A DNA stretch of 64,000 nt from NCBI RefSeq assembly GCF_000514775.1, contig NZ_AZWO01000001.1, positions 124,001-188,000 of the forward strand, given 5' to 3'. Every line of letters begins with the position of its first letter. The first letter of the stretch is position 1. The DNA comes from Salinispora pacifica CNR114. GTDB taxonomy: Bacteria > Actinomycetota > Actinomycetes > Mycobacteriales > Micromonosporaceae. The position numbers and the translations under genes are program-made. Under the pieces are notes generated by a model, which saw nothing but the letters and a program-made list of their open reading frames with translations, did not search any database and had not been told where the DNA came from. Below are positions 3,036 to 60,602 of the stretch, piece by piece.

Positions 3036-4283
3036 GTGACCAACCCCCCGCGCCTCTATCGCGCCCGCGAGCACCGGATCGCTGCTGGGGTGGCGGCGGG
3101 GATCGCCGGGCACCTTCGCATCCCGGTGCTCTGGGTCCGGGTCGCGTTCCTGGTGTTGCTCGGCTTCAACGGCCTCGGGTTGCTGTTGTACGCGGCCCTC
3201 TGGGCGGTGGTGCCGCTGCGACCGGGGGACACCGCCACCCCGCCCCGTCGTGATGTGGCTCAGCTGCTGCCGTTTGTGGCGATCGGCCTGGGGGTGCTGA
3301 TCTTCCAGGTGATCTTCTTTGATGCGGTGGGTGCGACCGGTGTTGCGGGCACCGCCGGCTGGCTTGTCACGATCATCGCGGTCGGGGCCGGGCTGATCTG
3401 GCACCAGTCCGCACCGCAGCGGCGACGGCAGTGGGACGGGACGCTGCCGGTGCCCTGGCTGAGCGCGGTGGTGGAGGAGAGTGACCGGCGGGCGTTCGTG
3501 CTTCGCTTCATCGGCGGCGGAATCCTGGTCGCGGTGGGGGTGATCGGGGTCGCGGCGGTGTACTCCCCGACGCAGAACTTCGACGCGGTGCTCAACGGCG
3601 TGATCTTCGCCTTGGTCGGTCTGGCGGGGGTCGGGGTGGTGGCCGCGCCGGTGCTCTGGCGAACCTGGAACCAGCTTCGGTCGGAGCGGGAAGGGCGGAT
3701 CCGGGAGCAGGAACGGGCCGAACTGGCTGCCATGGTGCATGACCAGGTGCTGCACACCCTCGCGTTGATCCAACGCAACGCCGGCGACGGGAAGACGGTG
3801 ACGCGGCTGGCCCGGGGGCAGGAGCGCTCGCTGCGCAACTGGCTCTACCGGCCGACTGCCTCGCCGACGGAGCGCTTCGCGGCAGCGCTGGAGCTGGTGG
3901 CGGCCGAGGTGGAGGACACCTACGCGGTCACGGTGGAGACGGTGGTCGTCGGTGACCGGGAGACCGACGAGCGGGTCGGCGCGTTGGTGGCCGCCGCTCG
4001 CGAGGCGTTGGTGAACGCGGGCCGGCATGCTGGGGTGCAGACCGTCTCGCTCTACGCCGAGGTCGAACCGGAGCAGGTCAGTGTCTTCGTCCGGGATCGG
4101 GGGAGGGGTTTCGATCCGGCTACGGTGGAGGAACGCCGGCACGGCGTTCGGGGCTCGATTATCGGCCGGATGAAGCGACACGGTGGCCGGGCGGAGATCC
4201 GCTCCGGGCCCGGGGAAGGGACCGAGATCCGGTTGATCCTGCCGATCTCCCGTGACGGGTCCACGGCGGAGAGGAGTAGGTGA
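3036..4283 (+). CDS. Sensor histidine kinase with N-terminal PspC domain
   Basis: 415 residues starting at GTG 3036; the in-phase GTG just before it is followed by a stop. AGGGAG lies about 14 nt upstream. Residues 1-65 are a PspC domain (YRAREHRIAAGVAAGIAGHL, then a hydrophobic segment). Four further membrane helices follow to about residue 210. The dimerisation/phosphoacceptor segment is AAMVHDQVLHTLALIQ, of the HisKA_3 (NarL-partner) type. The ATPase domain has an N box (AAREALVNAGRHAG) and glycine boxes (VRDRGRGFDP, GVRGSIIGRMKRHGG). It would autophosphorylate on the His of MVHDQ and pass phosphate to the response regulator encoded immediately downstream. Its stop overlaps that gene's start. 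Confidence 0.9.
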   Translation: MTNPPRLYRAREHRIAAGVAAGIAGHLRIPVLWVRVAFLVLLGFNGLGLLLYAALWAVVPLRPGDTATPPRRDVAQLLPFVAIGLGVLIFQVIFFDAVGATGVAGTAGWLVTIIAVGAGLIWHQSAPQRRRQWDGTLPVPWLSAVVEESDRRAFVLRFIGGGILVAVGVIGVAAVYSPTQNFDAVLNGVIFALVGLAGVGVVAAPVLWRTWNQLRSEREGRIREQERAELAAMVHDQVLHTLALIQRNAGDGKTVTRLARGQERSLRNWLYRPTASPTERFAAALELVAAEVEDTYAVTVETVVVGDRETDERVGALVAAAREALVNAGRHAGVQTVSLYAEVEPEQVSVFVRDRGRGFDPATVEERRHGVRGSIIGRMKRHGGRAEIRSGPGEGTEIRLILPISRDGSTAERSR

Positions 4284-53408: not shown

Positions 53409-55745
53409 ATGAGCCGGCGCCGGCTCGCCGCCGCGGCTACCGTCGTCGGACTGTTCGCCGCCGGCCTCACTGTCACCGGCAGCACCGCCGTCGCGAACGG
53501 CGATGGCTACTCGGCCCTGATCCAGCGCGCGTCGTACGGCGTACCGCACATCACCGCCCGTGACTTCGCCAGCCTCGGCTTCGGTACCGGCTATGTGCAA
53601 GCCGAGGACAACGTCTGCCTGATCGCGGAGCAGATGGTGACGGTTCGCGCCGAGCGGTCCCGCTGGTTCGGGGCGGAGGCAAGTAACGTCAGCAGCGACC
53701 TGTTCCATCAGAAGGCCATCGACGACCAGGTTGCCGAGAAGTTGCTCAAAGGTCCCCGCGATGGTGTCCGTGCACCCTCCAGGCAGGTACGCGACCAGAT
53801 CCGCGGCTTCGCCGCCGGCTACAACGCGTACCTCCGGGACGGGAAGGCGATCAACGACCCCGCCTGTGCCGGGAAGGAGTGGGTACGCCCGATCAGCAAG
53901 CTGGACATGTGGCGGGCGCACTGGGCCCAGATGGTCCTGGCCAGCTCTGGTGCCCTGGCCGACGGCATCGTTGCCGCAGCGCCCCCTACCGCCAGCGGGA
54001 ACAGCGCGTCGGCGAGTGCCCCGCCGGCGGCAGCCGTCGCCGGCTCTAGCGGTACGCCGACCGGATTGGGCAGCAACGCGTACGGCTTGGGGCGGGACGC
54101 CACCACCAGCGGCGCCGGCATGCTGCTGGCGAACCCGCACTTCCCGTGGGACGGCGCCGAGCGCTTCTACCGGATGCATCTCAAGGTGCCCGGCCGGTAC
54201 GACGTCGAGGGTGCGGCACTGGTCGGTGGCCCAATCATCCAGATCGGCCACAACGGCCAGGTCGCCTGGAGCCATACCGTCTCCACCGCGAGAAGATACG
54301 TGTGGCACCGGCTGTCCCTGGTACCCGGTGACCCGACCAGCTACCGCCACGACGGCCAGCCCCGGAAGATGACCGCCCGTACGGTCACCATCCAGACTCC
54401 CGACGGGCCGATCAGCCGGACCCTCTACGACACCCACTTCGGTCCGGTCGTCGTGGTGCCCGGTGCGCTCGACTGGACCACCACCACGGCGTACGCGATC
54501 ACTGACGCCAATGCCACCAACAACCGCGCGCTCGATGGCTGGCTGGCGATGGGACAGGCTCGGTCGGTGGGTGAGTTGCGGACGGTGTTGGACCAGCGGC
54601 AGTTCCTGCCCTGGGTCAACGTCATCGCCGTTGACCGTCGCGGCCAGGCCCTCTACGCCGATCACTCGGTCGTGCCCCGGGTAACCGACTCCCTGGCCGC
54701 CGCCTGCGTTCCGGCCTCCTTCCAGGACTTGTACGAGAGCACGGGCGAGGCTGTCCTCGACGGTTCCCGTTCCTCGTGCGAGTTGGGCCGGGATCCGGAC
54801 GCGGCGGTACCCGGCATCCTCGGCCCGGCCAACCTGCCCACCCTGGTTCGCAGTGACTACGTGACCAACTCCAACGACAGCCACTGGCTGGCCAATCCGG
54901 AGCATCCGCTGGAGGGTTACCCGCGCATCGTCGGCGACGAGCAGACCCAGCGCAGCCTGCGGACCCGACTCGGCGTGCACCAGGTGCAGCAGCGCCGCGC
55001 CGGCACCGATGGACTTCCCGGGAGGGGCTTCACCACCAGCAACCTGTGGGATGTGACGCTCGGCAACCGAGCCTACGGCGGCGAACTGGTCCGGGACGAC
55101 CTGGTCCGGAGCTGCGAGGCGGAGCCGACGGCGATCACCTCCGACGGCGCCACCGTCGACCTGACCGCAGCCTGCGCCGCCCTGCGCGGGTGGGATCTGC
55201 GGGTTGATCTGGACAGCCGGGGCGCACACCTGTTCACCGAGTTCGCTCGGGCCGCGGGCCTGCGCTTCGCCGACCCGTTCGACCCGACCGCCCCGCTGAC
55301 CACACCGAGCCGGCTCGCCGTCGACGACCCGGAGGTGCGGACCGCGCTCGCGAACGCCGTCCAGAAGCTGGACGGCATTCCGCTCGACGCCCGGCTCGGC
55401 GACATCCAGACCGAGCCGCGTGGCGCCGAACACATCCCGATCCACGGTGGCCACCACGACGCCGGTGTCTTCAACATGATCATCAGTGGGTTTACGCCCG
55501 GCGTCGGCTATCCCAAGATTTTGCACGGCACCTCGTTCCTGATGGCCGTCGAGCTGGGTAGGGACGGGCCGTCGGGCCGGCAGATCCTCACCTACTCGCA
55601 GTCGGCCAACCCGAATTCGCCCTGGTACGCCGACCAGACCCGGCTGTACTCGGACAAGGGGTGGGACACCATCAAATTCACGCAGCGCCAGCTCCGTGCC
55701 GACCCGAACCTGGTCACGTACCGGGTGGGGGAGCGGCGCGACTGA
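53409..55745 (+). CDS. Secreted penicillin-acylase family N-terminal-nucleophile hydrolase (aculeacin/AHL acylase-like)
   Basis: 778 residues. Signal peptide (LAAAATVVGLFAAGLTVTG), alpha subunit to about residue 215, then the autoprocessing site in TGLGSNAYGLG, where the Ser becomes the N-terminal nucleophile of the beta subunit. Downstream LLANPHFPW, HTVSTARRYVWHRL and the NSNDSHWLANPEHPLEGYPR region (Asn) complete the family pattern. Length and layout resemble aculeacin A acylase of Actinoplanes and the AHL-acylase AhlM group, which deacylate lipopeptides, echinocandins or acyl-homoserine lactones. A GTG-started 6-codon mini-ORF (53392) with GGAGG ends over its ATG. Confidence 0.92.
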   Translation: MSRRRLAAAATVVGLFAAGLTVTGSTAVANGDGYSALIQRASYGVPHITARDFASLGFGTGYVQAEDNVCLIAEQMVTVRAERSRWFGAEASNVSSDLFHQKAIDDQVAEKLLKGPRDGVRAPSRQVRDQIRGFAAGYNAYLRDGKAINDPACAGKEWVRPISKLDMWRAHWAQMVLASSGALADGIVAAAPPTASGNSASASAPPAAAVAGSSGTPTGLGSNAYGLGRDATTSGAGMLLANPHFPWDGAERFYRMHLKVPGRYDVEGAALVGGPIIQIGHNGQVAWSHTVSTARRYVWHRLSLVPGDPTSYRHDGQPRKMTARTVTIQTPDGPISRTLYDTHFGPVVVVPGALDWTTTTAYAITDANATNNRALDGWLAMGQARSVGELRTVLDQRQFLPWVNVIAVDRRGQALYADHSVVPRVTDSLAAACVPASFQDLYESTGEAVLDGSRSSCELGRDPDAAVPGILGPANLPTLVRSDYVTNSNDSHWLANPEHPLEGYPRIVGDEQTQRSLRTRLGVHQVQQRRAGTDGLPGRGFTTSNLWDVTLGNRAYGGELVRDDLVRSCEAEPTAITSDGATVDLTAACAALRGWDLRVDLDSRGAHLFTEFARAAGLRFADPFDPTAPLTTPSRLAVDDPEVRTALANAVQKLDGIPLDARLGDIQTEPRGAEHIPIHGGHHDAGVFNMIISGFTPGVGYPKILHGTSFLMAVELGRDGPSGRQILTYSQSANPNSPWYADQTRLYSDKGWDTIKFTQRQLRADPNLVTYRVGERRD

Positions 55746-56223: not shown

Positions 56224-57428
56224 ATGGCCTCGTCCGTCGACCCGCGCTTCGGGGTAGCACTGCGTGAGTTCCGGGAGCGGCGTGGTCTGTCGTTTCGATC
56301 CCTCGGGCAGCTCGCTCATCGGAGTAAGAGTCATCTGCAGGAGCTGGAGGCAGGGATCAAGGCTCCGACACTCGACACGGCGCGCCACCTGGACCGGATT
56401 CTCGGCGCGGAAGGTGTGTTGGCTCGCCTGGTTGACGCGCCGATCGACCATGCGGCCGAGGCCGGCGAACTCCGGGCGAGAGTCGCCGCCAGTGATGTGA
56501 GTGGAGAGGTGCTCGACCGGATCGAGCAGGGCGTTGACGACCTGGCCAGTTCCTATCCGACGTTGGCTCCGGCGGACCTGTTGCCGCTGGTGCGGCGGCA
56601 CCTCGCCGTTGTGCGGCGGTTACTGGATGGACGGGTCACGCTTGCTCAACAACGGCGGTTGTTGGTCGCTGGTGCCTGGATGGCGGTACTGCGGGCGACC
56701 GTTCACATTGACCTTCGGCAGCGGGTCGCTGCGGCTGCCCACCTGCGAGCTGCGCGGGACCTTGCCGAACATGCCGAGCACGGTGAGATCCAGGCATGGT
56801 GCCTGGAAACCCAGGCCTGGGACGTGCTGACTCAAGGTGACTACCGGAGGGCGCTCGATCTTTCCAACCAAGCTCAGCGGGTTGCCCCGAAGGGCAGCTC
56901 TGCTCGCATCCAGGCGATCGCTCAGGAAGCGCGCGCGTGGGCACGGATGGGCGAGGTCGGTGCGACCCGTCGAGTGCTGGACCGGGTGGAGCGGTTGACG
57001 GCGAATCTGCCCGTTCCGGAGCGGGCCGAGCACCACTATCGTTACGACCCGGCCAAGGCTGCCGCCTATACGGCCACGACGTTGGCGTGGGCGGGGGACC
57101 CGGTGCCGAGCAGGTAGCGCGGGCGGTGCTGGCTGACTTGGACCCGCACGGAGATGGGGGAGCGCGGCCTCGCCGGTCCGCGTCAGCTCGTCTCGATCTT
57201 GGCCTTGCCCTGGTCGCCGCCGGTCAGCCCGACGAGGCGGTCGCTCTGGGGGTGCAGGCTGTGGCGTCCGGGCGGGTGGTGCCGTCGAACTGGTGGCGAG
57301 CTGCGGAACTGTTGACAAAGGTGGAACAGTCGGGGGCGCCGGAGGCCGCGACCTTGCGTGACCTGTGCGTGGAGTACGCCCGGGACGCCGACTACCAGCG
57401 GACAGCAACCCTGGTTAGCGGACACTGA
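56224..57428 (+). pseudogene. XRE-family regulator with TPR-like domain, frameshifted
   Basis: Frame 1 (56224-57117, 297 residues) has an XRE helix-turn-helix (FGVALREFRERRGLSFRSLG, SKSHLQELEAGIKAPTLDTA) and helical TPR-like repeats, ending AAAYTATTLAWAGDPVPSR-stop. A second frame from ~57100 continues naturally: AEQVARAVLADLDPHGDGG, LDLGLALVAAGQPDEAVALG and on to a stop at 57428. Restoring one G in CCCGGTGCC would rejoin them into ~401 residues, normal for this actinobacterial regulator type. A 297-residue truncated but functional protein is possible. Confidence 0.75.
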
Positions 57429-59094: not shown

Positions 59095-59435
59095 GAAGCC
59101 TCCTTCGATTGATGCGCAGACGGGCATCACGAATTCGCAACCGAGTGGGCGACTACTTCAGACCAAATCTGATCATCGTTCACAGTCTTGCAAACTCTGA
59201 GTCTCAGTTCTGCGAAACAGCTCGTCTCACCCGAAGGCGGAGTCTGTCCGGCTTTGCGCGCCGAGCCCTGGGTCGCTGCGCTAGCGTCGAAGGTTCGCGC
59301 GGTGGTGCGCGGGGCTCCGATCGTAGGTTCGGGATATGTCGATGTCGAGCTGGCGGTGGCGGCCGGGCTGGTTGGCCGGGAGGCGACCAGCGGGAGCGGG
59401 GCAGGCCGACCGCCGGTCGGCCTCGCCGCTGTTGG
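59095..59435. other. Intergenic region, DUF1254 gene / XRE gene
   Basis: About 340 nt. The part next to the DUF1254 gene is AT-richer and presumably its promoter. A perfect hairpin at 59403-59423 (AGGCCGACC / GGTCGGCCT, GCC loop) follows the XRE stop on the minus strand and is its likely terminator. No gene seen. Confidence 0.45.
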
Positions 59436-59702
59436 TCAGGATGCCTGGCGGATGGACGGGTTGGTGAGCCAGGCGTCAGCCAGGTCGGCGAGGGGGGTGT
59501 CGAGGGCGCGACTGAGGCAGACCACGGTGCCGAACGCCGGTGCGGGCAGTCGACCCGACTCGATCTTGCGTAGGGTTTCGGGGGAGATGCCGGCCGCCAG
59601 GGCCACCTCGACGAGGCTGCGGTCGGCCCGCGCGGCCCGGAGGGCGACCCCGAGGCGCTGACCCGCGGCGATCTGTTCGGCGGTCAGGGGTTGGCGAACC
59701 AT
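59436..59702 (-). CDS. Small XRE-family transcriptional regulator
   Basis: 88 residues. A single helix-turn-helix: RLGVALRAARADRSLVEVAL, then AGISPETLRKIESGRLPAPA. Divergent from an extra methionine aminopeptidase, with palindromic sites between them, so it most likely represses that gene and itself. Confidence 0.85.
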   Translation of the reverse strand: MVRQPLTAEQIAAGQRLGVALRAARADRSLVEVALAAGISPETLRKIESGRLPAPAFGTVVCLSRALDTPLADLADAWLTNPSIRQAS

Positions 59703-59740
59703 GTCGGCAGGATAGCCTCCGGTGTTCTCCCCCGGGGGTG

Positions 59741-59767
59741 GTATAAAAATACGGTATTAAAATACCG
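59741..59767. promoter_or_regulatory. Double palindrome between XRE and aminopeptidase genes
   Basis: GTAT-AAAA-ATAC at 59741-59752 directly abuts CGGTATT-AA-AATACCG at 59752-59767. It is AT-rich in a 70% G+C region, 16 bp before the aminopeptidase GTG, and likely the XRE operator overlapping the promoter. Confidence 0.6.
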
Positions 59768-59783
59768 CTGCCTGGGAGGCGTC

Positions 59784-60602
59784 GTGATCGAGCTGAAGTC
59801 CGCCGTGGAGATCGGCCAGATGGCGGTCACCGGCCAGTTCGTCGGTGAGCTGCTCGCCGAACTGGGCGAGGTCGCCGCGGTCGGCGTCAACCTGATGGAC
59901 CTCGAACACCACGCCCGCCGTCGGATCGCGCAACGCGGTGCCGAGTCCTGCTACTGGGACTACGCTCCCTCCTTCGGCCGCGGACCCTTCCGTAACGTCC
60001 TGTGCCTGTCGGTCAACGACGCGGTGCTGCACGGCCTGCCGCACGACTATCTCCTCCGCGCCGGTGACCTGCTCAGCATCGACATGGCGGTCAGCATCCA
60101 GGGCTGGGTCGCCGACTCCGCGGTCTCCCTCATCGTGGGCACCCCCGCCCCGGCTGACCTGAAGCTGATCGAGGCCACCGAGGTCGCCCTCGAAGCCGGC
60201 ATCGCCGCCGCCCAGCCGGGGGGCCGGCTCGGCGACATCTCCGCCGCGATCGGTCAGGTCGCCGCCTCCTACGGCTACCAGGTCAACGGCGAGTTCGGTG
60301 GGCACGGCATCGGGCGCACCATGCACGAGGCCCCGCACGTGGCCAACAACGCCCGCGCCGGTCGCGGCCTGAAGCTGCACCCCGGCCTCACCATCGCCAT
60401 CGAACCCTGGTTCTGCGCCTCCACCGACAAGATCAAATTTGATGAGGACGGCTGGACGATCCGCTCCGCCGACGGCTCCCGTACCGCCCACTCCGAACAC
60501 ACGATCGCCATCACCGCCACGGGCCCGCAGGTCCTGACCCGTCGTCCCAGCCCAGGCGCCACCAGCGCTGACCCCACCGGCAGGCCCGCGGCGGCCTCCT
60601 GA
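59784..60602 (+). CDS. map: Type I methionine aminopeptidase (additional copy)
   Basis: 272 residues from GTG 59784 with GGGAGG just upstream; the in-frame extension to 59691 crosses the operator. Removes N-terminal Met. Metal ligands are all visible: Asp in LSIDMAV and VADSAVS, His in GGHGIGRTMHE, Glu in IAIEPWF and in TAHSEHTIAI; substrate His in LHGLPHDY. The N-terminal SH3-motif extension of some actinobacterial Maps is absent, and a ~20-residue Pro/Ser tail is added. The housekeeping map normally sits in the ribosomal secY-adk cluster, which is not here, so this is probably a second, regulated enzyme. Confidence 0.9.
   Translation: MIELKSAVEIGQMAVTGQFVGELLAELGEVAAVGVNLMDLEHHARRRIAQRGAESCYWDYAPSFGRGPFRNVLCLSVNDAVLHGLPHDYLLRAGDLLSIDMAVSIQGWVADSAVSLIVGTPAPADLKLIEATEVALEAGIAAAQPGGRLGDISAAIGQVAASYGYQVNGEFGGHGIGRTMHEAPHVANNARAGRGLKLHPGLTIAIEPWFCASTDKIKFDEDGWTIRSADGSRTAHSEHTIAITATGPQVLTRRPSPGATSADPTGRPAAAS

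Follow-up and report, generated by a model that had tools for sequence, protein, structure and literature searches.

Why does Salinispora pacifica CNR114 keep a further gene for type I methionine aminopeptidase (MetAP; the gene is map, the protein Map) next to a small regulator gene of the XRE family, and what could the regulator be doing there? The window, that is, the whole stretch of 64,000 nucleotides analysed, contains the xre gene on the minus strand (59436..59702). It starts with ATG and codes for an 88-amino acid protein with an N-terminal arm (MVRQPLT), one lambda-repressor-like helix-turn-helix (HTH) domain and a C-terminal QAS. The map gene lies on the plus strand (59784..60602), starts with GTG and codes for 272 amino acids. 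The coordinates given for both genes in the first-pass annotation were exact, and its description of a map gene divergent from a small xre gene across two abutting palindromes agrees with the 81-bp gap that we found. The Map protein scored 230 bits against the NCBIfam model of type I MetAP (TIGR00500; cut-off 171.35) and retains the five metal ligands (D100, D111, H174, E207 and E238), as expected of the complete enzyme that had been claimed. These ligands, together with histidines H83 and H181, are invariant in a 28-row alignment and are present in 79/79 named relatives. Removal of the N-terminal Met is the predicted activity of this Map.

A housekeeping map was sought elsewhere in the genome (5.87 Mb in 99 contigs). 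Four Map matches were obtained, and three of them exceeded the family cut-off: the paired one, a second full Map at C1:45418 that adjoins adk, and another full Map, with an N-terminal extension, at C17:63267. The idea that the paired gene is the only map is thus excluded. The extension of the latter Map, and of those at L156 and L160, begins with MTVRAPLTPG (3 of 11 such rows) and resembles the XRE start MVRxPLTP; this likeness is probably due to chance. Other genes of the window code for a penicillin amidase-family enzyme (53409-55745, 778 aa, E 2.5e-124) and for a second HTH regulator (HTH_31) with a long C-terminal part (56224-57117), which lies near the pair and is not part of it.

A survey of relatives revealed that the pair is conserved. 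In a search of 61 genomes, 30 loci were found (the present one included), and Map was divergent and beside XRE in all 30, at 49-100 bp. Named genomes contained 518 relatives, and the best 80 of these, all actinobacteria by title and under about 35 genus names, were likewise paired without exception, at 17-180 bp. Hence Map is divergent from XRE in 110/110 loci of the two sets, although the counts lack independence, as the loci are related to one another and certain genomes appear more than once; L014 and L049, for instance, come from contigs of equal length. XRE was detected at E 1e-13 or better in at least 23 genomes of an even sample of 396 from the phylum, a number that may be low because at most 13 candidates were scored per genome. 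From this sample 21 of 24 further loci were paired (L133, L138 and L139 were not), and at least three of the 24 (L116, L117 and L120) repeat earlier places. Together with L143, these three are the loci with an XRE and no Map in the DNA examined. One genome (G219) has a paired (L124) and an unpaired (L138) XRE copy. Sixteen records of a plasmid collection gave a match; among the five examined, three had a divergent Map, one had Map on the same strand and one had no Map. The same-strand case, in a Tsukamurella plasmid record (L141, 4001-5054) with 19 bp between the genes, was the only one of its kind.

Within the genus, the window-type pair was found in 14 of 37 genomes and a second type, with an XRE 53-59% identical, in 21. 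In the remaining two genomes (G010 and G015) neither XRE nor a third Map was among the matches listed. The two genes were adjacent by coordinates in 35/37 genomes, and no genome had both types among matches better than 1e-15. The XRE and Map distances correlated (n = 79, Mantel r 0.77, a value reached in none of 500 permutations); such a correlation would also arise between any two genes passed on vertically. In five of seven named Micromonosporaceae loci (L038, whose map side is cut off by the end of the contig, L042, L047, L049 and L070) DNA similarity to the window was limited to the pair; at L046 it added a PH-domain gene, and at L036 the whole right flank compared. The latter locus, from Salinispora cortesiana, was 93.5% identical over 4.3 kb; its similarity ended at 59430-59436, exactly where xre ends, and the DUF1254/DUF1214 gene of the window beyond that end had no counterpart in the stretch compared. 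The widest protein cluster outside xre and map occurred in 15/80 neighbourhoods, all from Nocardia. Since similarity is confined to the pair in most of these loci and few neighbours are common, the pair stays together while its surroundings change. A candidate for a third conserved gene, a 40-locus cluster, was discarded, as it consisted mostly of ORFs that overlap the pair (38 of 42 members). Architecture, linkage and joint presence or absence of the two genes can be read directly from these sequences.

The paired Maps are also distinct in sequence. In a tree of 61 Maps (midpoint root), 31 paired and 6 unpaired rows fell on one side of a branch with support 100/99; outside it were two more unpaired Maps and the 22 others. 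The loop that precedes C74 of P0001 is six residues longer in all 37 rows of this clade. In the window this loop, SCYWDYAPSFGRGPF, spans residues 55-69 (59946..59990, plus strand). The insert is absent in 21 of the 22 other Maps, L171 has an unlike filler, and in the two unpaired Maps outside the clade the loop is longer by four residues and by one. The loop length was identical across the 79 named paired Maps counted. The L032 Map is a special case, in that its translation stops after 59 codons though similarity continues. The six unpaired Maps of the clade have no recognisable XRE within the 3-4 kb examined; L145 and L146 are Maps of this kind, with the same clade and loop length and no recognisable XRE in 3.5-4 kb. 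The insert loop presumably borders the substrate pocket, as in Escherichia coli MetAP. Residues 59-66 had a pLDDT below 50 in the model, and hence nothing is argued from the modelled place of the insert.

The two palindromes are candidates for XRE sites. Copy 1, GGTATAAAAATACG (59740..59753), has one mismatch to the palindrome GGTATnnnnATACC, and copy 2, GGTATTAAAATACC (59753..59766), lies within CGGTATTAAAATACCG (59752-59767). The copies abut, and both are on the map side of the gap, about 40 bp from the xre start. A scan of the whole genome found a single exact GGTATnnnnATACC, and when one mismatch and an A/T centre were allowed the matches were these two adjacent sites only (control, 1). 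A wider XRE regulon was considered and set aside, as neither scan of the genome gave a further site. By itself, the count within the 64-kb window at two mismatches is not remarkable (2 found, 1.12 expected, and 2 or more in 32 of 100 shuffles), and these short palindromes were absent from the output of a general repeat finder. Across the 110 gaps, GGTATnnnnATACC was present in 97, once in 42, twice in 50 and three times in 5. Where XRE has 60% or more identity to that of the window, the gap contains it in 97/97 cases; the 13 gaps without it (12 second-type loci and L022) are the sole loci with an XRE below 60% identity, and therefore different, putative operators are expected there. The second-type gaps (L023-L034) are alike among themselves, and most of them contain TACCGGGATAATATGGCCGGGATA-like elements. 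Among the other genus genomes of the window type, 11 of 13 had one exact GGTATnnnnATACC, located at the pair, and two had further copies; it was found in none of four second-type genomes. Extra exact palindromes occurred in four of 20 other genomes (G004, G026, G043 and G056), and the control pattern, read backwards, was present in 7/20, up to four times in one. This rare and conserved operator-like site is thus a likely binding site of XRE. The earlier proposal that the extra Map stands under its own repressor holds for a regulator gene and for an operator-like site that is unique to the pair and conserved in relatives; that the regulator acts by repression is a matter of interpretation, taken up below.

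The position of the palindromes acquires a meaning when the gene starts are compared. Upstream of xre we noted a putative -10 element, TATCCT (59709..59714, minus strand), 6 nt before the ATG. On the other side, a ribosome-binding site (GGGAGG, 59774..59779, plus strand) precedes map, and a possible -10, TAAAAT (59758..59763, plus strand), lies inside copy 2, with TATAAA (59742-59747) as an alternative; both map -10 candidates were assigned by eye. A TANNNT element 6 or 7 nt before the xre start was found in 107/108 loci, compared with a mean of 8.13 and a maximum of 16 in 200 shuffles, and a Shine-Dalgarno (SD)-like sequence in 101/108 map leaders versus 13/108 xre leaders. These counts omit L103, whose XRE start is out of frame, and L074, whose gap is 17 bp. 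In 39 of the 55 gaps with at least two palindrome copies, the distance from the XRE start codon to the beginning of the first copy is 17 or 18 nt, which places this copy just upstream of the TANNNT element. The conserved spacing of this element, the scarcity of SD-like sequences before xre and the position of the palindrome suggest that the xre message apparently lacks a leader, that XRE represses its own gene and that it represses map as well.

The XRE protein exceeded the HTH_3 and HTH_31 cut-offs. Its structure model (pLDDT 90.7) shows a five-helix HTH domain preceded by seven unstructured residues and followed by a weakly predicted tail, and it is a single domain, with no sensor domain. 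The fold search returned 2OFY as the nearest structure, followed by ClgR proteins and restriction-modification controllers. The start Met-Val-Arg (59694..59702, minus strand) is found in 109/110 relatives, in an arm of the form MVRxPLT; residue 4 takes 11 different residues. Over the 109 loci Val2 uses three codons and Arg3 six, and hence the constraint acts on the protein. The sole exception is L103 (about 3940-4110), where the XRE start is out of frame relative to its relatives; it was omitted from the codon count and also from the distance and residue counts of the named Maps.

Taken together, these results make it likely that xre and map form a self-contained module, in which XRE is the dedicated repressor of an alternative, insert-loop type I MetAP. 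In our model, XRE dimers would bind GGTATnnnnATACC by means of the HTH and an N-terminal arm like that of the lambda repressor. Relatives with two sites have the first immediately upstream of the xre -10 and the second nearer the map start, so that XRE should repress map and, in these relatives, also xre; in the window, with both copies on the map side, it would repress map. We infer that XRE is a self-limiting repressor devoted to the alternative MetAP, which would be made as a spare, beside the two others, when repression fails. DNA binding, the activity of the enzyme, the direction of regulation and the signal are the interpretive parts of the model, and XRE could also be an activator.

What, then, would relieve repression? 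With no sensor domain in XRE, the signal is expected to affect the XRE protein directly, by way of a partner, of its stability or of the state of its N-terminus. A signal that affects stability corresponds to a proteolytic switch, in which Clp turns over XRE through a C-terminal Ala-Ser or Ser-Ala, a tail that we take to be a Clp signal by analogy with PopR and ClgR, and altered turnover releases map. XRE ends in AS in 68 and in SA in 16 of 110 loci, and ClgR proteins are its nearest structures after 2OFY; the other 26 XREs end otherwise. We regard this switch as possible, though the odds are against it.

Our leading guess for the signal of the repressor module is the N-terminal state. Of the triggers named in the first-pass annotation, a stress that changes N-terminal processing is the most attractive and may be the right one. 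XRE would then read the Met-excision capacity of the cell from its own Met-Val start, in a homeostatic loop that needs no ligand. Val being borderline as a second residue for MetAP, Met would be cleaved from this start only as long as MetAP activity is plentiful, and the operator would be held by the mature Val-Arg arm. If the housekeeping enzymes were inhibited or starved of metal, newly made XRE would keep its Met and release the operator, and the alternative MetAP would be made until XRE arms are processed again, so that a protein-processing enzyme would be both input and output. The idea derives from a study of Bacillus subtilis Anti-TRAP, a protein that starts with Met-Val and whose N-terminal state governs its assembly, where Val2 is called an often poor MetAP substrate (PMC11255114). 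Against it, three unpaired XREs (L133, 1462-1749; L138, 1501-1752; L143, 4001-4258) also start with MVR, and the conservation of MVR would be accounted for just as well by an arm that contacts DNA. The diverged unpaired XRE of L139 has no MVR in the ORF listed. We hold this sensor reading tentatively, and it is rather unlikely to be correct in full.

Resistance is a less probable origin of the pair. The third Map would be insensitive to, and induced by, a bengamide-like inhibitor from the host or a competitor. The extra Map has its own regulator gene, duplicated-target self-resistance is recognised by an extra copy of an essential target, and three full Maps are present here. The distinct loop, if it borders the substrate pocket as in the E. 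coli enzyme, might exclude inhibitors. Yet H83 and H181 are retained in 79/79 Maps, the pair is present in 35/37 genus genomes and under about 35 genus names, and no neighbour recurs beyond the 15 Nocardia loci. Moreover, no polyketide-synthase, peptide-synthetase or terpene-synthase domain was detected at E 1e-6 in 47 window ORFs, which include 43 of the 48 ORFs of 330 aa or more. With no biosynthetic cluster found, the earlier suggestion of self-resistance in a Map-inhibitor producer is not supported; resistance to a compound from a competitor may still play a part. An addiction or toxin-antitoxin-like module, in which XRE would keep in check a Map that does harm when unregulated, is very improbable: the pair is kept together amid changing surroundings, occurs in four of the five examined plasmid records and has a weak HipB-type similarity in XRE, but the HipB-type antitoxin model TIGR03070 gives 19 bits (cut-off 71.65), the genes are divergent rather than co-directional (110/110, with one plasmid record on the same strand), the Map active-site residues are intact and ordinary, and XREs without Map exist. 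A defence-system search (PADLOC) returned no family for Map and three weak ones for XRE. A phage origin was considered too: 33 phage records matched Map, with an identity of at most 39.3% among the 20 matches listed.

No description of an XRE-Map pair was found in the titles and abstract starts of the open literature, a scope outside which most subscription papers and bioRxiv preprints fall. Both protein families are ordinary ones; the tightly conserved module that they make up has apparently not been described. It centres on an essential step of protein processing that is also a drug target. Studies of MetAP inhibitors in actinobacteria should allow for a third enzyme, which may be inducible. 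If the N-terminus were the sensor, the module would show how bacteria can monitor N-terminal processing.

The module also suggests a role for the regulator family to which 2OFY, a protein of Rhodococcus sp. with a solved structure and no assigned function, belongs. 2OFY is the best fold match of XRE and belongs to the same family (profile E 4.5e-37 over residues 1-79); it starts with MVRVPLT, and its entry title says only "putative". It is treated as a globular dimer in a simulation study (PMC9861041). Mycobacterial genomes have two to four putative MetAP1 genes, according to one report (PMC3154147). Among their products, MapA (MtMetAP1a) and MapB (MtMetAP1c) are type I MetAPs like the Map of the window; unlike them, the paired Maps form a separate group of 37 rows (100/99) with a six-residue insert and a regulator of their own. 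Anti-TRAP differs from XRE in that it binds zinc, acts on TRAP and is not an XRE protein; it keeps its Met1, and its assembly is blocked by the formyl group (PMC11255114). Lambda CI (1LMB) shares its fold with XRE (rank 42, TMq 0.60 over 87 columns), and in both a flexible arm precedes helix 1. The arm of lambda CI ends in PLT, and lambda CI is made from a leaderless mRNA. Unlike lambda CI, XRE has no second domain, a Val-Arg arm and one apparent chromosomal target.
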